Source: Mariniphaga anaerophila (GTDB lineage Bacteria; Bacteroidota; Bacteroidia; Bacteroidales; Prolixibacteraceae). From it: DNA of 64,000 bases. The position numbers and the translations under genes were made by a program. Positions 13,491-27,666 of the stretch are shown here, one piece after another; position 1 is the first letter of the stretch; the number at the start of each line of letters is the position of its first letter. Location of the stretch: positions 310,001 through 374,000 of the forward strand of contig NZ_FQUM01000001.1 of NCBI RefSeq assembly GCF_900129025.1. The letters run 5' to 3'. A model generated the notes under the pieces. That model saw only the letters and a program-made list of their open reading frames with translations, did no database searches and was not told where the DNA came from.

Positions 13491-15377
13491 ATGAGACCAT
13501 TTATTCAGGCTGAAAATCTTTCGAAACGCTGGGGAGAGCTTATGCTTTTCGAAAACATTTCGTTTACCGTTTTCGAAGAACAAAAAGTAGCGCTTATTGC
13601 CCGAAACGGAACAGGAAAATCAACACTGTTGGATTTGCTGGCCGGAAAAGACACCCCCGACGAAGGAGTAATTACCATTACCAACGATATTAAAGTAGGG
13701 TATTTCGAACAGGTTCCGCAATTAAACCCCGAGCACAGTGTTTTGGAAGAGGTGTTTGACACTGACAACGAGAAACTGCGTGCGGTAAAACAATTCGAAC
13801 TGGCTGTGGCACAAAATAACCAGCAAAAAATTGCCGAAATATCCGTAAAAATGGACGAACTGAATGCGTGGGATGCCGAAGTTGAAATAAAGCAAGTGCT
13901 CACTCAGCTCAAAATAGTAGATTTGGAGCAACAGGTAGGGCAGTTGTCCGGAGGGCAACAAAAAAGGCTGGCACTGGCAAAAGTACTGATGCAGAAACCT
14001 GATTTGCTGATTCTTGATGAACCAACCAACCACCTCGATCTGGAAATGATTGAATGGCTGGAAACTTACCTGGAAAAGACAAAGTCAACTTTACTAATGG
14101 TTACTCACGACCGCTATTTTCTTGACCGCGTATGCACCGAGATTATAGAAATGGAAGACAACCAGATTTACCGTTACCAGGGGAATTACTCCTATTTTCT
14201 GCAAAAAAGAGACGAGCGAATAGAGATGCAGCAAGCATCGGTTGCCAAAGCAAAAAACCTGCTTCGCACCGAACAGGAATGGATGCGGCGTATGCCCAAA
14301 GCCCGTGGTCACAAGGCAAAATACAGAGTCGACTCTTTTGAGGAAATCAAAGAGAAAGCCAGCCGGAGACTGGGAGAAGAAAGCGTTGAACTGAGCGTAA
14401 AATCTGCCCGGCTTGGAAAAAAGATTGTTGAAATTGAAAATCTGTCTAAATCGTTTCCGGGAGTTAAATTGATCAATAACTTTTCTTATAAATTCTCGCG
14501 ATACGAAAAAGTGGGCATTGTTGGAAAAAACGGAACCGGGAAAAGTACTTTCCTGAACCTGATTACCGGCGCCATGCAACCGGATGCCGGTAAAATAAAA
14601 ATTGGACAAACCATAAAATTCGGATACTACAGGCAGGAAGGTATTAATTTCGACCCGCAGGAACGGGTAATTGATGCGGTGAATAAAATTGCAGAATTCA
14701 TTATTTTCGAAGACGGTTCGCGCATGACCAGTTCCCAACTGCTAACCCGTTTTCTTTTTCCGCCCGACACGCAATACAATTATATTGAAAAGCTGAGCGG
14801 TGGCGAGCAGCGCAGACTCTACCTGTGTACCGTTTTAATGCAAAATCCGAATTTTCTGATTCTGGATGAGCCTACCAACGATTTGGATATTCTGACACTA
14901 AATGTTCTGGAAGATTATCTGAAGGCTTTTGAAGGATGTGTTGTGGTAGTTTCGCACGACCGGTTTTTCATGGATAAAATTGTAGATCATCTTTTTGTTT
15001 TTGACGGGAATGGAACTGTTACCGACTTCCCTGGAAATTACACCATTTACAGAAACGAAGAGGAAGAAAAACTTAGGTTAGAATCTGCCAAAAGTCCGGC
15101 AAAAACTACCGACAAAAAACAAAAGGCAGAAGAAGCAGAAAACAGCCGGAATTCCAAAACAAAAAAGCGACTTTCGTTTAACGAAAAACGGGAATTCGAA
15201 CAGCTTGAAAAAGATATTCCGGAACTGGAAAAACAGGTTGCAGAACTGGAAAAATCGATGAATTCAGGAACACTGCCGCACGATGAATTGTATGAAAAAT
15301 CGCTCGAATTAGAAAAAGTAAAAACGCTGCTCGACGAGAAAGAATTTCGGTGGCTGGAGCTGAGCGAGCTGGGGTGA
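13491..15377 (+). CDS. ABC-F ATPase, Uup-type
   Basis: A 628-residue protein with two fused nucleotide-binding domains and no membrane segment, as in ribosome-associated ABC-F translation factors. First domain: Walker A ARNGTGKST (Lys43), signature LSGGQQKRL, Walker B LLILDEPTNHLD. Second domain: GKNGTGKST, LSGGEQRRL, FLILDEPTNDLD. The linker between them is charged and basic (RMPKARGHKAKYR). The C-terminal 100 residues form a Lys/Glu-rich coiled coil, the mark of Uup. The first Walker A begins with Ala in place of Gly. It likely acts on stalled ribosomes or on DNA-branch structures as Uup does; an antibiotic-resistance role has no support here. Confidence 0.9.
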   Translation: MRPFIQAENLSKRWGELMLFENISFTVFEEQKVALIARNGTGKSTLLDLLAGKDTPDEGVITITNDIKVGYFEQVPQLNPEHSVLEEVFDTDNEKLRAVKQFELAVAQNNQQKIAEISVKMDELNAWDAEVEIKQVLTQLKIVDLEQQVGQLSGGQQKRLALAKVLMQKPDLLILDEPTNHLDLEMIEWLETYLEKTKSTLLMVTHDRYFLDRVCTEIIEMEDNQIYRYQGNYSYFLQKRDERIEMQQASVAKAKNLLRTEQEWMRRMPKARGHKAKYRVDSFEEIKEKASRRLGEESVELSVKSARLGKKIVEIENLSKSFPGVKLINNFSYKFSRYEKVGIVGKNGTGKSTFLNLITGAMQPDAGKIKIGQTIKFGYYRQEGINFDPQERVIDAVNKIAEFIIFEDGSRMTSSQLLTRFLFPPDTQYNYIEKLSGGEQRRLYLCTVLMQNPNFLILDEPTNDLDILTLNVLEDYLKAFEGCVVVVSHDRFFMDKIVDHLFVFDGNGTVTDFPGNYTIYRNEEEEKLRLESAKSPAKTTDKKQKAEEAENSRNSKTKKRLSFNEKREFEQLEKDIPELEKQVAELEKSMNSGTLPHDELYEKSLELEKVKTLLDEKEFRWLELSELG

Positions 15378-15483
15378 AAAAGGAATAGTGTATTCAGTTG
15401 ACTCAGAAATTGGCCCCACTATTTTGCCTGTTATTGTTGTATTATTGCTAGTCAGTCAAATGAAAGATGGCGTAAGTATGCTT

Positions 15484-15529
15484 ATTGGCAGGTTGTGGCC
15501 GAGAAAAAAGCCGTGTGCAACCTGCCAAT
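15484..15529. repeat. 12-base perfect inverted repeat at the edge of the accessory stretch
   Basis: ATTGGCAGGTTG (15484-15495) and CAACCTGCCAAT (15518-15529) are exact inverse copies around a 22-base centre that itself holds a weak GGC/GCC stem. No T tract follows on either strand, so it is unlike a normal terminator. It sits between the ABC-F gene and the 3' end of the SPFH operon. Confidence 0.6.
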
Positions 15530-15552
15530 GTGTATGACCGTATTACGTCGAA

Positions 15553-16305
15553 TTAAGCTTTCTTTTGCCGAAGCATTGTCCGAATTGATTGAACTGCTTT
15601 ATCAACGCGAGATGACATTTCAGAACTTGTTTTTAAGGTTGAGTCATTTGTAATAACAGAAACTTCATCACCAGCTAATTTTAGAATAAACTGTTGTGCC
15701 TCTTCCAATCTCTGTCCATCTTTTAATGTATAAGCACTTGAAGCTGTTGCTGTTTTTACTGAAACAACATCCTTGTAAAAGAATTCATTCGTTGATTCAT
15801 TAATTGATGTATTTTTAAGCCAGTTGTAATCACACTCATAACTGCCAAGAAAATTTTCAGTGAATAAGAAAATTTGAATTTTCCAAACAGAATATCTAAA
15901 AAACCCATCGTTTCCTTTTCTTCTTTTAACATCGTCAATATCGAAACCGCTAACCCGCCAAAATTGAGGGCCAGGAATTACAAGAGATTCTGCAACTAAA
16001 TCTTCCTTATCTACACCAACCTTATCAAGAGCATCTTTCTCAATAATTGATTTAGTGTCTTCCCAAAACCATTCATCCATTTGAGAATCAGCAGGACGAG
16101 CCTCATAACGTTTTTTAGCTTTAAAAAACTTTAAAATAGGTATCACTGCAATTAGCAAACCAACAATTATCAATACTGGTGTAACTGTAGATTTTTCAAT
16201 TACAGCACCAACAACAATGGCAACTATTCCTAACAGGAACAATTTCACACGAAATTTTGGTTTCGGTGCATCAAAATACTCTTGAATTTGTTGTTTTTTA
16301 TCCAT
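15553..16305 (-). CDS. Two-helix membrane protein of unknown function in the SPFH operon
   Basis: A 250-residue protein not recognised as a named family. It starts with a polar MDKKQQIQEYFDAP segment, then two adjacent membrane helices (about residues 20-36 and 42-62). The rest, about 185 residues, is soluble and probably cytosolic, with aromatic-rich strands (PGPQFWRVSGFDID, FFRYSVWKIQIFLFT) and an acidic/lysine mix suggesting a beta-sandwich or PH-like fold. The last gene of a four-gene run, 32 bases after the zinc-ribbon gene. Codon use is visibly AT-rich compared with genes before 15.4 kb. Confidence 0.75.
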   Translation of the reverse strand: MDKKQQIQEYFDAPKPKFRVKLFLLGIVAIVVGAVIEKSTVTPVLIIVGLLIAVIPILKFFKAKKRYEARPADSQMDEWFWEDTKSIIEKDALDKVGVDKEDLVAESLVIPGPQFWRVSGFDIDDVKRRKGNDGFFRYSVWKIQIFLFTENFLGSYECDYNWLKNTSINESTNEFFYKDVVSVKTATASSAYTLKDGQRLEEAQQFILKLAGDEVSVITNDSTLKTSSEMSSRVDKAVQSIRTMLRQKKA

Positions 16306-16337
16306 TTTGTACAGATTTAATAGTTATAAAAAATTAA

Positions 16338-16943
16338 TTAATTTTGAATTATTGATAGCAACTGATCATCTCTGATAATTACATTTTTAACAAGAACATC
16401 TAGTTCGTCTGGCTCTTTCTCTGCAGTTTGAGCATCAGAAATCAACTCATTATAATTCGGCTGTGGTACTTTAAGCCCATTGCAAGCATAATAATCATAA
16501 TTTATAATTGCAGCTAAATAAAAGTACTTCTCTTTATCATCAAGCTGCATTGCAGTATTCAGGTACTCTTCAATTCTCCTAATATCCTTAAGGTTCATAG
16601 ACTTTGGGCGTTTCCCCCTTATTAAGGATAAAGCGTAGTAATAGTAAACGTCTGCTTCGTCAGGGAGTTGAGTAATTGCAGCTTCAAAATTTTTGATAGC
16701 CAAATCATAAAGCTTTAAGTTTAGATAAAACATCCCCAAAGCAAATAAAGCTTCACCATCACTTGGATCTTCTTTAACCTGAGCTTTAAAATAATTGGCA
16801 ATCTTTTTCGCTTGTTTTTCTTCAACATTCAGTGGATGGCTGTTTGAAACTATAATATTTTCACTCTGACAATAAATACATGTTGTATTGTCTGGCGAAA
16901 GATTAGCTCCACAACCATTACATTGTAAAATTTCTACTTTCAT
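16338..16943 (-). CDS. Zinc-ribbon plus TPR protein in the SPFH operon
   Basis: A 201-residue soluble protein. The N-terminus has a zinc ribbon with CxxC pairs at Cys8/Cys11 and Cys22/Cys25. Residues about 45-130 form TPR-like helical repeats (EALFALGMFYLNLKLYDLAI, EADVYYYYALSLIRGKRP), a scaffold for protein-protein contact. The C-terminal third is acidic. Zinc ribbons followed by TPRs are common in adaptor proteins, so it may link the SPFH protein to the membrane partners. Starts six bases after the stop of the upstream membrane gene. Confidence 0.8.
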   Translation of the reverse strand: MKVEILQCNGCGANLSPDNTTCIYCQSENIIVSNSHPLNVEEKQAKKIANYFKAQVKEDPSDGEALFALGMFYLNLKLYDLAIKNFEAAITQLPDEADVYYYYALSLIRGKRPKSMNLKDIRRIEEYLNTAMQLDDKEKYFYLAAIINYDYYACNGLKVPQPNYNELISDAQTAEKEPDELDVLVKNVIIRDDQLLSIIQN

Positions 16944-16949
16944 ATAACA

Positions 16950-17684
16950 TTAGTTTAATGAATTAATATAAAATATGGTGTCGTTAACAATTTCAGTTAT
17001 CTCTGTTTGAATTGCTTTGCCATCAGATTCAACTTTTTTTAGCTCATCCAAATTATTCTCTATTGCACTTAAAGAATCGTTAATTTTCGAGTATGAGTTA
17101 TTGTTTTCAATAATTTTGGGATTGCCAAATTGAATTTTATTGGTCAGTTTACTAATAATTGAATCATGTTCAGATTCAAATGATTCAGAAATGCCTTTTT
17201 TCGATAATTCAGATTTGTACTTGCTTTCTAAATATTTAAGCTTTTGAACTAAAGTTGACTGGGAAGCAAAAACGTTTTCGGCCTTTTCATTTTCGACAAC
17301 TACATTGTTGTTTAGTTTTAATGTAAAACCAGTTGCAATCACCCCGAATAAGGTACCAACAACAATTACGGAGTAATACCACTTTACTGAAATAAGGAAA
17401 AGCAGGAATAAGTTAAAAATAAGAATGACTGCAATTCCAAAAATCAGGTAAAAGAACAAGATTGAACCTAATACAGAATAGGTTGAACCAAGAACTTTCT
17501 TACTACTAAATCTTGTAATGTAAATAAATCCGTAGAAAAGTAGTTCAAGAAAAATTGTGTAGCCAAGATTAAATGCAAATAAGGTCGTTCTGCTTTCTGC
17601 CTTCGACCAATATAGAAATAGGAAAACAGTAACTGCAATTGTGCATAACAGCAGTATTAATGAGATATTTATCTTCCGTTTCAT
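16950..17684 (-). CDS. Four-helix membrane protein with a C-terminal coiled coil, SPFH operon
   Basis: A 244-residue protein not recognised as a named family. The first half holds about four hydrophobic segments (residues roughly 5-24, 34-56, 70-99, 103-123). The second half, from about 130, is polar and rich in Lys, Glu, Asn and Ser with heptad-like spacing, fitting a cytosolic coiled coil. The gene lies 11 bases downstream of the SPFH gene and six bases upstream of the zinc-ribbon gene, so the four proteins are probably made together. Confidence 0.75.
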   Translation of the reverse strand: MKRKINISLILLLCTIAVTVFLFLYWSKAESRTTLFAFNLGYTIFLELLFYGFIYITRFSSKKVLGSTYSVLGSILFFYLIFGIAVILIFNLFLLFLISVKWYYSVIVVGTLFGVIATGFTLKLNNNVVVENEKAENVFASQSTLVQKLKYLESKYKSELSKKGISESFESEHDSIISKLTNKIQFGNPKIIENNNSYSKINDSLSAIENNLDELKKVESDGKAIQTEITEIVNDTIFYINSLN

Positions 17685-17695
17685 ATGCCAAATAT

Positions 17696-18889
17696 TTAAG
17701 GGTGAGGAAATGGCGGTGGTGGTGGAGTTGAAGTACCAAACAAGTGCTTAATTTCAGGCAAATTCTCAGCTTTGTCCCATTGTGCCATACCTTCTTTCCA
17801 AACAAAAGTTTCTTTAGTAATTTGACCATTTTGGACATATGATTTTAGCTGTTCCAAATTAAATGGACCTTCTTGCTTGTTATTTACTAAAACAAAAATT
17901 GCAGAAACAGGTGGAGGAGGTGGTGTTGCGTGTAGTTGATTCTGACCAGTATTTAACTGGCTGCCCATATTCCCCATTTGATTTCCCATTGCGCCGCCAA
18001 TGCCAAATCCCATTCCGAGCCCCATTCCTGCCCCCATTAGATTTCCAGAATTGCCTTCATTTTGGGCAGCAGAATCCATAACATCAAACGAACGTTCTTG
18101 CTGATAAGTGTATCCTTCGATATCTCGTTGTAATTTATTGGCTTGAGCTTGGTTAATTTGTTCAACCTGTGGATGATCTTCAGGATAATTAATTGATTCA
18201 GCGTAAAAATTGGTAATTAGTATTCCATATTTTTCGAATTCTTCACTTATCCTTTCTTTACAGGTTTTAGAAATATCGTCAACATGAGCTGGAATATCTA
18301 CGACCGAAACTTTTCGTTGAACGATATATTTCGAGATTGTATCGGTTACTTTTGTAATAATCAGCGAGGTAAAGTATTGCTGAATTGTTTGGATGTCAGC
18401 AGTATGCAATGTCCCAACAATTTGCGTCATAAAACTTCTTGCCTCACTTATTTGAATCCCATATTCTCCATAAGCGCGAACAGGAATAATAAACCCATAA
18501 AGAGGGTCTCTCAAACGCATTGGCGTTTTTGTTCCCCATTTTAAATCTCTTTTAACGGTTTTATTAATGTACCAGACTTCTGCTGAAAAAGGAGTCTTGC
18601 TGCCAAAGGGCAAATTAATCAGTTTTTGGAGTAATGGAATATTCGCAGTCGAAATGGTATGAGTTCCAGGTCCAAATGAGTCCAAAGCTTTTCCACCTTT
18701 GTAAAAAATCGCTTCTTGACTTTCGTTTACAATTAATTGAGCTCCAATAGTCAGGTTATCATAAGGAAACTTCCAGACTAATTCATCCTCTGGTCCATCA
18801 TATTTTATTCGGTCAATTACCCCTTTTCGGGAATTATCAGTACCGTCAAATGTTCGACCATCCGTTCGATTTCTGTTAAATAGGCCCAT
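17696..18889 (-). CDS. SPFH-domain protein (YdjI/virion-core-like) with C-terminal GYF_2 domain
   Basis: A 397-residue protein. Residues about 30-270 match the SPFH/band-7 group called virion core protein or YdjI-like: ELVWKFPYDNLTIGAQLIV, QEAIFYKGGKALDSFGPG, HTADIQTIQQYF. There is no N-terminal membrane helix, so membrane binding would be peripheral. Residues about 280-315 are a Gly/Met/Asn-rich linker, then a proline run, then a GYF_2 (DUF4339) domain about 328-385 (EGPFNLEQLKSYVQNGQI and a WKEGMAQW motif), then a PPPPP tail. In Bacillus subtilis the SPFH gene ydjI is next to the PspA gene; no pspA is seen here. First gene of the operon. Confidence 0.88.
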   Translation of the reverse strand: MGLFNRNRTDGRTFDGTDNSRKGVIDRIKYDGPEDELVWKFPYDNLTIGAQLIVNESQEAIFYKGGKALDSFGPGTHTISTANIPLLQKLINLPFGSKTPFSAEVWYINKTVKRDLKWGTKTPMRLRDPLYGFIIPVRAYGEYGIQISEARSFMTQIVGTLHTADIQTIQQYFTSLIITKVTDTISKYIVQRKVSVVDIPAHVDDISKTCKERISEEFEKYGILITNFYAESINYPEDHPQVEQINQAQANKLQRDIEGYTYQQERSFDVMDSAAQNEGNSGNLMGAGMGLGMGFGIGGAMGNQMGNMGSQLNTGQNQLHATPPPPPVSAIFVLVNNKQEGPFNLEQLKSYVQNGQITKETFVWKEGMAQWDKAENLPEIKHLFGTSTPPPPPFPHP

Positions 18890-19762
18890 AGTTATTAATA
18901 TTTATGATTAAATAATAGTTTGTGTGGTTCTAAGAAAAGGGGAAAAACAAATGTGTCGCAATTTTGTATTGGCTTTTGGCGCTGACAATTTGCAACTCTT
19001 GTGTTTGTGCGTTAGCTTTTTCTAGGTTCATTCTCATTATAATATGTTTAGTAACGGCTGAATGAATGTTTACAGAGCTAATTCCGAAAAGATTGTCCGT
19101 CTGAAGGACGAAGAAAATCGAAACGAAAATCCACGGCTGGCAAAATGCCAACCCCGCCATGAAACATTGTTACAACTCGTTTTTGTTTTTATTTCTTATC
19201 TATTTTGTCGAGTTTTAAAAGGTCGTTTTGGGTTATTTCTCTCAGTCATTCACTTTTTACTATTGTCTTTTCCTTGTCATACTGATTTGTAGGAAAAGCC
19301 GATGTGTGGTCGTTTTCATTCATTAGTTGTCTGTCGATTTTTGGACCAAATTTATTCATTTTTCAAACAATCTGGGAACCAATAATCAATGTTTTTTCTA
19401 CTATTTTCAATGCTTCGCTTCCTCAAATACATTTCATTTGTTTTTGAGGAATAATATTTTCTGCTTCGCTCTTTTCTTTGTTTTCTTCTTTTCCACTCAA
19501 AACCTGGTTAACTGTCAAAAAATACGTTGTTTATGTTTTGACTTTTTCTTTTCTGCCTTCGCTTTTATCTTGTTGAAATAGATTTTTATTGATTAATAGG
19601 CACCTCTTTAAAATGCGCTGGGAACAGTTATTATAAATGTTGCGTAAGCAGGTCAAACGAGAGTCTTATTACCCGCTCGAAACCGAAGCAGGCACGAGAT
19701 TAACCTGTATCGAATCTGCACAAACCAAGACGTGCCTTACAACACATTTTATACATTGTTTT
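18890..19762. other. Gene-poor 873-base gap in the accessory stretch
   Basis: No convincing gene is seen. Frames are broken and the open stretches are low-complexity, Phe- and Lys-rich on opposite strands. The segment holds small hairpins, for example GTCC..GGAC near 19088-19105 and TGGCAAAATGCCA near 19138-19150, and the long imperfect repeat at 19638-19744. The promoter of the SPFH operon must lie in its left part, but no clear TTTG/TAnnTTTG pair was found. Confidence 0.5.
19638..19744. repeat. Long-range imperfect inverted repeat downstream of the MuiA-like gene
   Basis: TGTTGCGTAAGCA (19638-19650) is a near inverse of TGCCTTACAACA (19733-19744), and the match extends outward with ATAAATG on the left and CATTTTAT on the right. 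The 82-base centre contains further short stems. The shape, terminal inverted motifs with a structured centre beside an accessory gene, recalls recombination sites such as attC, but no integrase is present and no established core was identified. Confidence 0.4.
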
Positions 19763-21643
19763 CTATTCTATGGTCAAGTCCCTTGATTTCGGATATTTCA
19801 CTGAATATTTCAAATCAAAGTCCTTTTTCTCCATTGGTTTTAACGCAAACTCCCACCTAACTTCTCCACTTTCTTTGTTTAGCTTACCGCCAGATACATT
19901 TTGAATGGTTACTTCAATTTCTTCGAGTTTTGACACGGGAGCTTGGTCAAGTACGACCATATTAATCTCTTGGCTTTTGTTATTTCTAATGGTTGTTTTC
20001 CAAGATTTTGATTCTTCTTTCTTTGAACCAATAAATTGTCTGGTTTCAAAATCCTTTTCTTTTTCCCGGTTAACAATTACATTTTTGTCTTTACCTAACG
20101 AAAGCTGCAAAGTGTCTGATGCAAACCGAACATCTAAAAGTGATTTTCCAACAAACGTTCCTTCGAAAAAAATATTGGCTTCACCTTCCAGCAAGTTAAA
20201 TTTTTCCCAGTCAGTTATATTTGCAATTAAGTAAGCTTCTTTTTCAATTTTGGGTACTGAATAATATTGGAAGAATGCAGGTACCTGATATACTACCATG
20301 TCAACCGAATAGTTTTTATTGTCTGAATTGACTGAATATGGAGTTGAAATTTTAAAATTTATAGACGTTTGATTTTCCGTTTTTTCAAAAGGAATTGCAA
20401 TACTTTCTACATCTCTGCTTCTAGTTTTATTTACTGAAACTCCTGCTACTCTGCTTTGAAGTGGTTTTGATATTTCAGCGTCGTTCTGAATGCCATAACC
20501 AACCACAACAGTTTCTTGCAATGCTGCATCATCTTCAAACATTTTTACATTAATTACAGAACTTGTGATTGGTAAAGTTTGAGTTTTAAAACCAATAAAT
20601 GAGAAAGTTAAATAACCAGCATTGTTTGGGAGTGTAATTGAATAATTTCCGTTCATATCTGTGACGGCACCAATTGTTGTTTCTGGAACCATTACCGTAG
20701 CACCTGGCAATGGATTATTCTCCTGATCTAAAACCCGACCACTGACAGAATTTATTGATTTATTGTAAATCGGCGGCAAACTGTAGTAGTCGAGATAATA
20801 AGTCTTAAGTTCCGGAGCAACTCCCGATGAATTTGGATTTGAAGAGGAAAAACTAAGTTTTACATTTTTCCAATCAACTTTAGTGTCTTGCCGTAAATTT
20901 GCTTTATAAATAATCTCTACGGGGTCATTTATTGTATTTGCACGAATATCATATGTTGGATACCACCCTGCGTTGTCAACAATGTACGATAATTCGAAAG
21001 ACGGATTTGTTTTAATTTTACTTTGAACCTTTACTAAAATTTCACCCGAAGCAAATTCTTTCTTGCTTGTTAATGTATTTAATTGGTTTTGAAGTTCGTT
21101 CTTTTGTTTTCTTAATTTTTCTAAAGCATTGTTTCTTTCTATTTCTTTGAGTTTTAATGCAGTCAGTTTGGTGCTATAGAATTCAGAAGCGTCTTTGAGT
21201 GTCGAAATATTTAATTCATTGTTTTTACCACCAATAACCCTATTGTCATTTAAAAAAGTCAGTTCATCTTTTAAAATCGAAAGGTAGGTTTCTTCTAATT
21301 TGATTTGATCGTTTAGGTCATCAAGTTTTTCTTCAATTTTTTTTACTTCTTCAGATTTTTCGAGTTTATCAATAAAGTTTTGCTGATGATTTACTGCCAA
21401 AACAGTCACCTCTCCACTCGCTTTAACCTGAATACTTTTTGCGTCAATGAAAGGAGAAAGATTTATAAATTTTAAAATTGTGATTCCAGAGTTAACGTCA
21501 ACCGTTTTTTGTCGTGTAACTTGTGCTTTGTCAATAAAAACAGTTACTTCATTAACTTCTGTTTTGATTTCTTTTTCTACAATTTCTTGTGCAAATAAGT
21601 TGCTGAAAATTAGGCTTAATAGTAAAATAGTTATTGCTTTCAT
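19763..21643 (-). CDS. MuiA-like DUF4139 exported protein with an inserted carboxypeptidase-regulatory domain
   Basis: A 626-residue secreted protein with signal peptide MKAITILLLSLIFSNLFAQ. Residues about 25-125 are the DUF4140 N-terminal region (EVTVFIDKAQVTRQKTV), 85-210 a coiled coil, and 215 onward DUF4139 (SYIVDNAGWYPTYDIRA, DTKVDWKNVKLSFSSSNP). Between about 300 and 400 it carries an inserted CarboxypepD_reg-like beta domain (SGRVLDQENNPLPGATVMVP) followed by ETVVVGYGIQ and LQSRVAGVSV, sequence normally found at the start of TonB-dependent receptor plugs. The family is named from a mucoidy inhibitor; the true role is unknown. Single gene in an AT-rich setting. Confidence 0.85.
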   Translation of the reverse strand: MKAITILLLSLIFSNLFAQEIVEKEIKTEVNEVTVFIDKAQVTRQKTVDVNSGITILKFINLSPFIDAKSIQVKASGEVTVLAVNHQQNFIDKLEKSEEVKKIEEKLDDLNDQIKLEETYLSILKDELTFLNDNRVIGGKNNELNISTLKDASEFYSTKLTALKLKEIERNNALEKLRKQKNELQNQLNTLTSKKEFASGEILVKVQSKIKTNPSFELSYIVDNAGWYPTYDIRANTINDPVEIIYKANLRQDTKVDWKNVKLSFSSSNPNSSGVAPELKTYYLDYYSLPPIYNKSINSVSGRVLDQENNPLPGATVMVPETTIGAVTDMNGNYSITLPNNAGYLTFSFIGFKTQTLPITSSVINVKMFEDDAALQETVVVGYGIQNDAEISKPLQSRVAGVSVNKTRSRDVESIAIPFEKTENQTSINFKISTPYSVNSDNKNYSVDMVVYQVPAFFQYYSVPKIEKEAYLIANITDWEKFNLLEGEANIFFEGTFVGKSLLDVRFASDTLQLSLGKDKNVIVNREKEKDFETRQFIGSKKEESKSWKTTIRNNKSQEINMVVLDQAPVSKLEEIEVTIQNVSGGKLNKESGEVRWEFALKPMEKKDFDLKYSVKYPKSRDLTIE

Positions 21644-22115
21644 AATATATTCATTTTCATAGGATACAAAAATCTCATAAATATCTTTATTAAAGTTCTG
21701 ACTAACATCAGAAAATACAATTGTGGTTCACGAGTTACCTAATTCAATTTCGTCAGGTTTTATGTCAAATTTAGCCATTTGTTTTAAATTCTTTTAGCTA
21801 TTCCCATCTTTCTTTTTTTTGGGTCGAAGGGCAGGTATTCTTTAGGTGTATTACACCGTACTTTTTTGACCAGCAGTGTCTAAATAATTCCGACTAGCAT
21901 AAAAATTAGTCATTGATTTACAACTGTTTCGTTAGTCAATTTTGTTATTCCCTGACTCATTCCTGCTGTCCCTTATACGTTAGCGACAGGATTAATAATC
22001 CGCTTTTACTTATACACATTATTGCGCATTCTTTTTTATTGTTTTTAATATTCTGACATACTAAAACTATTGATAGAATTATTTGAAGTAACCGAACCAA
22101 CAACATCTAGCAATT
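21644..22115. other. Gap of 472 bases with short hairpins, no gene seen
   Basis: AT-rich sequence without a credible reading frame. It includes a small perfect stem GGTGT/ACACC at about 21844-21856 and a CTGTC...GACAG stem near 21968-21987 that encloses CGTTAGC, a motif resembling an integron core site. It marks the left edge between the MuiA-like gene and the U32 gene; nothing more can be supported. Confidence 0.35.
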
Positions 22116-25371: not shown

Positions 25372-26457
25372 CTACTCAGCCCGGGTATTTGCAAAATCCA
25401 TCTTTTGCCTTTTTGCAATTATTTTTGCCAACTGAAGGTAAAGCTCATTGTCTTCCGGATCGTTGGAGTGATGCAGTTTGAAAAATGAATCTCCTCCTTG
25501 GTAATAGGCCACTTCCATTTTATCCCAAACATCGTATTGGTCAAACACACGGATATAGTCTTTCATACGATACCCCCAACCATGTTTAGCTAAAGCTCGA
25601 TCATCAAATTCCATCTCCATGCTCATACCATATTTCATAGCATTTTCACATGCTTCTTCTATTTGAGAAATAGGTCTGTCTTCTTTAAAAAAGTAATTCG
25701 GCTGATAAAAGGCCTGATCGAAGCCAAGTTCTTGCCATTCGTTATATCCATCTGAATTGAAATAAGGTATCCAGTACAACTTATAACCACGTTCATTTGT
25801 GTATTCGGCAACGTGCTTCACCAAATCCCGGCTGTTGGTAGCCTCTTCGGCAACCCAATAGAACCCTGCTAACTCAAGATTTTCAGGGTCTGCTTTTTTA
25901 AATGATGCAATGGCATAATCGATGACCCATTTACATGCTTCTAAGCGGTCTTCCTTCTTCGAAAAATTCATGGGTTCACCTTTTATTTCACCCCAATCAG
26001 TTTGATTTGGAATTGGTTCGGGAACAGTAAGCACTATTTTACGTTTAAAGGGCATCTTTGCAGCAGAACTCTCTAAAACTTCCGAAATCTGCTTATCTAA
26101 AGCCATAACTGCATTATCTTCAAGAAAGTAATTATCTATCAATCCTTTCCATTCTACTTTTCTTGCTGCCGAGTCTTGATAATACGATGCAAATCCTCTA
26201 CCCTTTCCATCATGAATCTCTAGAAACAAAAATCCATCGAATAACCAGTCTACACTTCCATCTTCATTCTCAAGAGAAACATATGGCGCAAAATGGTCTT
26301 TGTTCCATTTTATACTTCGGTGTGCTCCCCCGTCGTATATCAGAACCATATCGCGTATAGCCTGATCTTGTTTTGGAGTGCATGAATAAAAAGAAGCCCC
26401 TGCCATAAGTAAGAAAAAAGACAGGAAGAGTTTATACGTAATTTTAAATTTTAACAT
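25372..26457 (-). CDS. DUF4855 family lipoprotein (second of a tandem pair)
   Basis: A 361-residue protein with a lipoprotein signal ending FYSC (Cys about 26). The rest matches DUF4855: DMVLIYDGGAHRSIKWN, WLFDGFLFLEIHDGKG, LELAGFYWVAEEATNSRDL, YKLYWIPYFNSDGYNEWQ, QAFYQPNYFF and MSMEMEFDDRAL. The order of acidic and aromatic motifs looks like a TIM-barrel glycoside-hydrolase-like fold, with the Glu pair of VAEEATNS and the Glu/Asp of MEMEFDD as possible active-site residues; that reading is an inference. It follows its paralogue by 45 bases and is the last gene of the utilisation locus. Confidence 0.87.
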   Translation of the reverse strand: MLKFKITYKLFLSFFLLMAGASFYSCTPKQDQAIRDMVLIYDGGAHRSIKWNKDHFAPYVSLENEDGSVDWLFDGFLFLEIHDGKGRGFASYYQDSAARKVEWKGLIDNYFLEDNAVMALDKQISEVLESSAAKMPFKRKIVLTVPEPIPNQTDWGEIKGEPMNFSKKEDRLEACKWVIDYAIASFKKADPENLELAGFYWVAEEATNSRDLVKHVAEYTNERGYKLYWIPYFNSDGYNEWQELGFDQAFYQPNYFFKEDRPISQIEEACENAMKYGMSMEMEFDDRALAKHGWGYRMKDYIRVFDQYDVWDKMEVAYYQGGDSFFKLHHSNDPEDNELYLQLAKIIAKRQKMDFANTRAE

Positions 26458-26502
26458 ATCGATATATTATGTTTATATGATTATTGTAATGATTTTAGAA
26501 GT

Positions 26503-27666
26503 TCACATCTGATATTCTTCGGGATCGATTCTGATATTATTGTTTTTAATTTGCCTTTCTGTTACAAATTTGCAAAACTTGTGATAAAGCTGTTGATCTT
26601 CCTCTTCATTCGACTTAAAAAGCTCATACAAGGTTCTGTTTCCCTGGTAGTATGCTAATCTTTTTGATTCCCATATTCCGTACTCTTTGAAAGCTTTCAT
26701 GTAATTTTCGAGCCTGTACCCCCAATTTCCACGATCAATCATGACTCTATCGTCAAACTCTATTTCCATATCCATTCCGTTGGCTTTCGCGTCTTCGCAA
26801 GCTTTGTTGAGAAATGAAACAGGCCTGCTGTCATTGAAAAAATAGTTGGGTTGATAATAGGCATAATTAAAGGTGAGTCTTTCCCAGTCGAAAGCGCCAT
26901 CAGAACCATGATAAGGAATCCATACAAAACCATATTTCAAATTATTTAGATAAGCTGATAGATCGGCCAAAATACCCCTTGAATTGGTAGCTTCTTCCGC
27001 AATCCAATAAAAACCGGCCAAATCAATGTTTTCATAGTTCATCTCTTTAAACTTCTTTCTTGCATAATCGATGTACCACTGACAGGCACTTATCCGATCG
27101 TCTGGTTTTGAAAAATCCAATAGGGCACCATTACTAACGCTTCCCCAATCTTTTTGTGTTTTTATAGGTTCCGGAATTCCGATTACTACTTTTCGTTTTT
27201 CTGTAGGTTTACCCAAGCGCTCTTTGGCACTCTCAACTGACCTGTTTAAAGCCCCCAGGCAGTACCGCGACTGAAAATAGTAATCAAGCAGTTTTTTCCA
27301 GTCGTATTGATTGGCCGGAACAGGAGTATATCCTGAGGCAAATGTTTTACCCTCGCCATTGTGGATCTCCAAAAATAAGAATGAATCAAACATCCAGTGT
27401 TCATTGCCCGATTCATCGACATTGGTAACGTATGGTTCCACATATTCTTCGTTCCATTCATGGCCCCGGTGTGATCCGCCGGCATACAGAAGAACCATGT
27501 CTTTGTTCTCTAAAAGTTCAGTCCTGTTTTTCTCCCATTCATATAATGAATTATCTTCCTTTTCTTCTTCTGGAGAAGGAACATAACTTGGAGCATTCTC
27601 CGAACATGCAGCGAACATAGAAAATATAACAAATAAAAACAGAGAATGAGTTCTCATTTTTTGCAT
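26503..27666 (-). CDS. DUF4855 family lipoprotein (first of a tandem pair)
   Basis: A 387-residue paralogue of the downstream protein, with lipoprotein signal FSMFAAC and a serine/glutamate-rich spacer. Shared blocks are DMVLLYAGGSHRGHEWNEEY, MFDSFLFLEIHNGEGKTFAS, DLAGFYWIAEEATNSRGI, FVWIPYHGSDGAFDWERL, QPNYFF and DMEIEFDDRVM. The pair keeps these blocks but differs widely elsewhere, so the duplication is old and the two may act on different parts of one substrate. A very strong hairpin lies between this gene and the SusCD genes upstream, so it may be expressed at a lower level or from its own promoter. Confidence 0.87.
   Translation of the reverse strand: MQKMRTHSLFLFVIFSMFAACSENAPSYVPSPEEEKEDNSLYEWEKNRTELLENKDMVLLYAGGSHRGHEWNEEYVEPYVTNVDESGNEHWMFDSFLFLEIHNGEGKTFASGYTPVPANQYDWKKLLDYYFQSRYCLGALNRSVESAKERLGKPTEKRKVVIGIPEPIKTQKDWGSVSNGALLDFSKPDDRISACQWYIDYARKKFKEMNYENIDLAGFYWIAEEATNSRGILADLSAYLNNLKYGFVWIPYHGSDGAFDWERLTFNYAYYQPNYFFNDSRPVSFLNKACEDAKANGMDMEIEFDDRVMIDRGNWGYRLENYMKAFKEYGIWESKRLAYYQGNRTLYELFKSNEEEDQQLYHKFCKFVTERQIKNNNIRIDPEEYQM

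Follow-up and report, generated by a model that had tools for sequence, protein, structure and literature searches.

A four-gene SPFH/GYF_2 operon of Mariniphaga anaerophila as a candidate PspA-independent membrane scaffold

Four neighboring genes in a 64,000-nucleotide stretch of the Mariniphaga anaerophila genome (the window; contig NZ_FQUM01000001.1, positions 310,001 to 374,000) are well supported by sequence comparison as a real module and not a chance grouping, and we propose, at a probability of roughly 0.5, that their products form an SPFH scaffold, independent of PspA, on the cytoplasmic side of the inner membrane, where it would serve membrane upkeep. The layout (Table 1) agrees with a first-pass annotation that had placed four minus-strand open reading frames 11, 6, and 32 bases apart, exactly in coordinates, strand, and gaps. 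Its reading of one transcription unit holds as far as spacing and conserved gene order only, as a promoter scan of the operon returned promoter-like sites at a frequency no higher than that in shuffled sequence.

Table 1. Features of the operon and its surroundings, in positions of the window
Feature	Coordinates	Strand
Gene 1, YdjI-type SPFH (Band_7_1) protein with GYF_2 tail, 397 aa	17696..18889	-
Gene 2, membrane protein, four predicted helices and helical tail	16950..17684	-
Gene 3, soluble zinc-ribbon/TPR protein, 201 aa	16338..16943	-
Gene 4, two-helix membrane hairpin and domain of PH-like predicted fold, 250 aa	15553..16305	-
ABC-F gene, flanking the operon and outside it	13491..15377	+
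Low-GC stretch, from 14401 through the operon into the DUF4139 gene	14401..22000	n/a

The product of gene 1 is a member of the Band_7_1 family (PF13421; E 2.7e-49, 168.1 bits against a Pfam cut-off of 24), and its GYF_2 domain at residues 332-379 is likewise a member (E 5.7e-18, 64.9 bits against a cut-off of 25.8) and also matches the solved domain 7z3c. Together with two flanking proline runs, these matches bear out the earlier description of a YdjI-type SPFH protein with GYF_2 set between proline runs. The linker is rich in glycine and methionine, the protein has no membrane helix, and an N-terminal extension of about 22 residues is common to relatives that have the same operon. In a tree of SPFH proteins, those encoded in the Bacteroidota operons cluster, with the proteins of loci L223 and L032 inside the cluster and those of L094-L096 adjoining it.

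Gene 2 had been described as a coiled-coil membrane protein; the membrane part stands, and the description is corrected to four helices predicted by hydropathy (approximately residues 7-25, 36-54, 71-89, and 92-110) followed, in a structure model of low confidence (pLDDT 69), by a C-terminal helical tail that presumably lies in the cytoplasm. The protein has no Pfam match over the cut-off, and a Foldseek search with the low-confidence model returned nothing usable. Its profile finds the gene that adjoins SPFH in Firmicutes, and in hhalign the gene 2 profile and the Firmicutes partner profile align over 198 columns at 99% probability (E 2.2e-18). Counted with both gene 2-type profiles, the family adjoins SPFH in 55 of 77 loci (45 at +1 and 10 at -1) and is found among none of 515 background genes lying further from SPFH, figures that describe a strong trend and not a probability, given that 19 of the 55 adjacent loci served as profile seeds and the loci are not independent. 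On this profile evidence, gene 2 is a member of a wider unnamed family that stands beside YdjI-type SPFH genes in many phyla.

The zinc-ribbon and TPR content assigned to gene 3 is upheld: the Pfam matches are weak, but all four cysteines are invariant in ten relatives, and the product is a probable adaptor. A zinc-ribbon neighbor lies within three genes of SPFH in 67 of 77 loci, compared with 30 of 515 background genes; a class-wide search with the zinc-ribbon/TPR profile returned many generic TPR matches, among which only the host's own genome and genome G144 stand out. For gene 4, the label of a two-helix protein is right about the helices and incomplete beyond them, as a C-terminal domain of PH-like predicted fold has to be added. 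In the model (pLDDT 78.7, with residues 188-201 and 218-229 poor), strands span residues 107-218 and a helix residues 229-248, giving the seven-strand barrel closed by a C-terminal helix that characterizes PH-like domains. The top Foldseek matches were hSac2 and a bacterial PH domain (probability 0.98-0.99, E only about 0.01), and VIA-align gave Z up to 9.4 with an rmsd of 2.7 over 95 residues; PH or PH-like domains make up the leading Foldseek matches and most of the VIA-align list, including the bacterial 3hsa and 3dcx. The soluble part of gene 4 is thus predicted to be PH-like. At one locus (L029), a single protein joins family 3 to the soluble domain of gene 4, its residues 1-197 matching the zinc-ribbon/TPR profile, built without L029, at 1e-47 and its residues 517-616 matching the gene 4 profile at 1.8e-5.

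Searching named bacterial genomes with gene 1 yielded 80 loci; among the closest of them, all four families occur together on six other Bacteroidota contigs (L025, L026, L028, L030, L031, and L034; L026 and L027 are two records of one contig and were counted once). Gene order is that of the window operon in L025 and L026, and gene 4 sits upstream of SPFH in L028, L030, L031, and L034, which are from Bacteroidales; in L034, gene 4 is spread over two frames. An acidobacterial locus (L096) has SPFH, gene 3, and gene 4, and where gene 2 would stand it has a four-helix gene. This gene was assigned by its place and topology and afterward served as a profile seed, which makes its later profile score circular. 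L029 adds SPFH and a gene 2 found by profile at 1.8e-53 (L029 was no seed) to the gene 3/gene 4 fusion. Another genome of the host's taxonomic family (G015; L019, L197) also has, at a contig end, genes 2 and 3 together with a GYF_2 tail, and the operon type therefore exists elsewhere in that family. In the class sample, most genomes with a GYF_2-tailed SPFH have no match to genes 2 and 4, and the four-gene form is therefore one version of a loose toolkit. That most of the class GYF_2 SPFH genes examined have other partners would also be expected if the four genes were unrelated neighbors with no joint role, a reading we regard as highly improbable in view of the linkage repeated across phyla, the conserved order, and the gene fusion. 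The joint module of the first-pass annotation is thereby strengthened, as its families recur together across phyla and are neither rare companions nor a constant housekeeping set.

Two kinds of mobile carriage were considered for the module and set aside. Among the genes of a Bacteroides finegoldii match filed as a plasmid are obgE, adenylate kinase, hpt, and rny, and the record is typed as non-mobilizable; it is probably a chromosomal piece and is not evidence of mobility. Phage carriage is limited to three distant phage records and three IMG/VR contigs. Two of these IMG/VR contigs, filed as viral (L211 and L212), hold a Firmicutes-type pair of SPFH and four-helix genes, with two SPFH frames in L212.

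The closest described system is the membrane-stress complex of B. subtilis, where YdjI, a soluble SPFH protein, requires the membrane proteins YdjG and YdjH to form membrane foci and brings PspA to the membrane (PMC8581546). A survey of PSP systems describes the ydj operon with PspA and assigns a TPM domain to YdjH, and zinc ribbons, an NTF2-like domain, and a membrane helix to YdjG (PMC11237479). Like pspA-ydjGHI, the window operon sets a soluble SPFH gene beside two membrane-protein genes and has zinc-ribbon content; unlike it, operon and genome are without PspA, the main repair protein of that complex, a GYF_2 tail replaces the zinc-ribbon tail, and TPR and PH-like parts are extra. Compared by published features only, genes 2-4 have no Pfam match to TPM or to the zinc-ribbon plus NTF2-like combination. 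In the Firmicutes cassettes (within L035-L089), homologous SPFH and gene 2 are adjacent, mostly in the same order, with a zinc-ribbon protein next; the SPFH tail there is a zinc-ribbon array whereas that of the window is GYF_2, and no relative of the gene 3 TPR part or of gene 4 was found in them by profile. Beside one such cassette, in Clostridia, the zinc-ribbon protein (L060:10665-11300) probably carries a ribosomal L7/L12 C-terminal domain. With flotillin/NfeD and HflKC the operon shares the SPFH domain and the idea of a membrane scaffold, yet it has four genes without an NfeD or FtsH partner, and gene 1 is without a membrane helix; there is no NfeD-like gene among the four operon genes or the neighbors scanned, which sets the operon apart from the flotillin/stomatin-NfeD type.

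The lack of PspA, which the first-pass annotation had reported for the locus, extends to the entire genome, and the notion of a set self-contained without PspA is supported at that level: PspA_IM30 (PF04012) has no match anywhere in the host genome (99.99% complete), and control genomes were positive. Across a class sample of 247 genomes, with tail classes set by match coordinates, PspA scored over the cut-off in 1 of 40 genomes with a GYF_2-tailed SPFH and in 16 of 21 with a tail-less or SHOCT-tailed one (match ending before GYF_2). The difference is marked per genome (Fisher p 1.5e-9) and by genus (1/23 vs 9/12, p 2.8e-5), although these statistics ignore kinship and descent accounts for part of the contrast, one genus supplying seven of the 21 tail-less or SHOCT-tailed genomes. 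All seven tail-less SPFH genes examined at the DNA level (7/7) have a SHOCT-like end segment. The association of SHOCT with PF13421 is published (PMC3581485); such proteins, in Bacteroidia and others, belong to the same SPFH family and differ from gene 1 in their short C-terminal module, in a genome that usually bears PspA, and in their neighbors. In Bacteroidia loci L215-L221, SHOCT-tailed SPFH and PspA share a genome, and several of these loci have a conserved gene, about 170 aa long, ahead of SPFH. The co-occurrence of SHOCT-tailed relatives with PspA, and the recruitment of PspA by the same SPFH type in B. subtilis (PMC8581546), would suit a docking platform for a PspA relative or ESCRT-III-like protein missed by Pfam PspA_IM30. 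We consider this quite improbable, since the host genome has no PspA_IM30 match and neither PspA nor TPM is among the 25 Pfam families listed for 133 SPFH neighbors, mostly outside Bacteroidota, which were chosen via similarity to the window SPFH and do not represent B. subtilis-like operons; a further 11 families, with one member each, rank below 2.4e-6, and a true PspA would be expected to give a much stronger match than that.

The genomic placement of the operon points to an accessory element. Its GC content is 34.3%, compared with 41.0% for the window, and lies in about the lowest 2% of 3.3-kb segments over 124 kb. The ABC-F gene is the last in genus synteny, and the operon comes next here; in three congeners, the gene after ABC-F is a short conserved one (about 130 aa), which by eye we take to be PUR/DUF3276-like, and folD and ffh come after it. 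None of these three occurs in the window or within 60 kb beyond it. A simple island insertion predicts them on the far side of the operon; they were found instead on another host contig (C29), and a rearrangement with or without insertion is therefore indicated. Single-sequence searches, which a divergent copy could escape, found gene 4 in none of 35 other members of the host's taxonomic family, the three congeners included, and a search of the same kind found no gene 1 in those congeners. The operon thus looks accessory in this genus, and low GC together with the synteny break fits acquisition from outside plus rearrangement at the same place. The same low-GC stretch holds a DUF4139/DUF4140 protein with an inserted CarboxypepD_reg-like domain (19763-21643). 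Further along the window, two tandem DUF4855 genes (25372-27666) lie close to a locus of SusC/SusD and sigma/anti-sigma type, and alpha-L-rhamnosidases are found beyond it.

The operon's sporadic occurrence, its accessory character, and its low-GC position at a break in synteny would also suit an anti-phage or conflict module, in which membrane damage or phage proteins, once sensed by the scaffold, would set off a membrane effector. In the same direction points a gene 3 relative in G144 (L193:6667-8166), where EAD11 (E 1e-9) replaces the zinc ribbon and a gene 4 relative follows directly; that gene 3 relative and the SPFH gene of its genome are on different contigs. EADs are described as adaptors of predicted conflict systems (PMC8195603). 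Against this reading, the PADLOC models (2023) gave one weak TPR match only for the four proteins, clear defense-type matches among 61 proteins of the module loci were limited to a type IIG restriction enzyme (L034) and one candidate family (L030), and no toxin or nuclease domain is recognizable. The loci have no common defense neighborhood of the kind that the first-pass annotation had named as possible support for a module, and we judge a conflict role unlikely. In that annotation's alternative of membrane repair or envelope defense, repair would hold by analogy with YdjI, and defense finds little support from PADLOC or the neighborhoods.

An accessory gene seen in several loci bears on another reading. 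YidD, a membrane protein insertion factor, is encoded between family 4 and SPFH in Bacteroidales (L030:7555-7977, also L214; L031:7530-7976; weaker in L034), adjoins family 4 in G263 (L194:7758-7970), and stands by SPFH in an alphaproteobacterium (L094:2195-2485). These positions, along with the known part of HflKC and prohibitins, both related to SPFH, in quality control of membrane proteins, would fit a function in membrane-protein biogenesis or quality control in which SPFH would gather the machinery of inner-membrane insertion and clients would be delivered by the zinc-ribbon/TPR and PH-like proteins. YidD is, however, missing from the window operon and from L025, L026, L028, and L096, its role is itself only partly known, and no FtsH-like protease was seen nearby; we therefore hold this function to be rather unlikely, noting that it could be a specific form of the scaffold explanation. 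The YdjI analogy and YidD point to membrane upkeep and the EAD11 relative to conflict signaling; the clues are unequal, and upkeep is ranked first.

Under the preferred scaffold reading, the soluble SPFH protein would oligomerize like other SPFH proteins, and the four-helix protein would anchor the oligomer at the membrane, its helical tail projecting into the cytoplasm. The GYF_2 tails may bind proline-rich segments, the simplest being the GYF_2-flanking proline runs of neighboring subunits, in a predicted contact that could act as a reversible clasp or as a docking site for clients. The zinc-ribbon/TPR protein would be the soluble adaptor and the hairpin/PH-like protein its second membrane partner, a pairing we infer because families 3 and 4 are fused in one relative. 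Under stress, in cells that have no PspA, such a complex may organize or stabilize the inner membrane or the proteins in it.

The SPFH domain, GYF_2, zinc ribbons, TPR, and the SHOCT-PF13421 association are already known; our literature search, which was not exhaustive, returned no account of the four-gene operon, the four-helix family, or the tail-PspA split, and no experiment on any member of the module. SPFH function varies widely among subfamilies. We tentatively put forward, as a possible broader reading, that YdjI-type SPFH and an unnamed four-helix anchor constitute a widespread undescribed membrane system in which the choice of working partner depends on the tail (GYF_2, SHOCT, or zinc ribbons), SHOCT leading to PspA and GYF_2 to proline-binding and to TPR/PH-like adaptors that replace PspA. 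Most of what is known of YdjI-type SPFH proteins comes from the Bacillus operon linked to PspA; the split between SPFH tail and PspA in Bacteroidia, together with the four-helix partner shared across phyla, suggests that many of them work without PspA. They would then be a family of membrane scaffolds open to experiment, both in Bacteroides and in other bacteria with little-studied responses to envelope stress.
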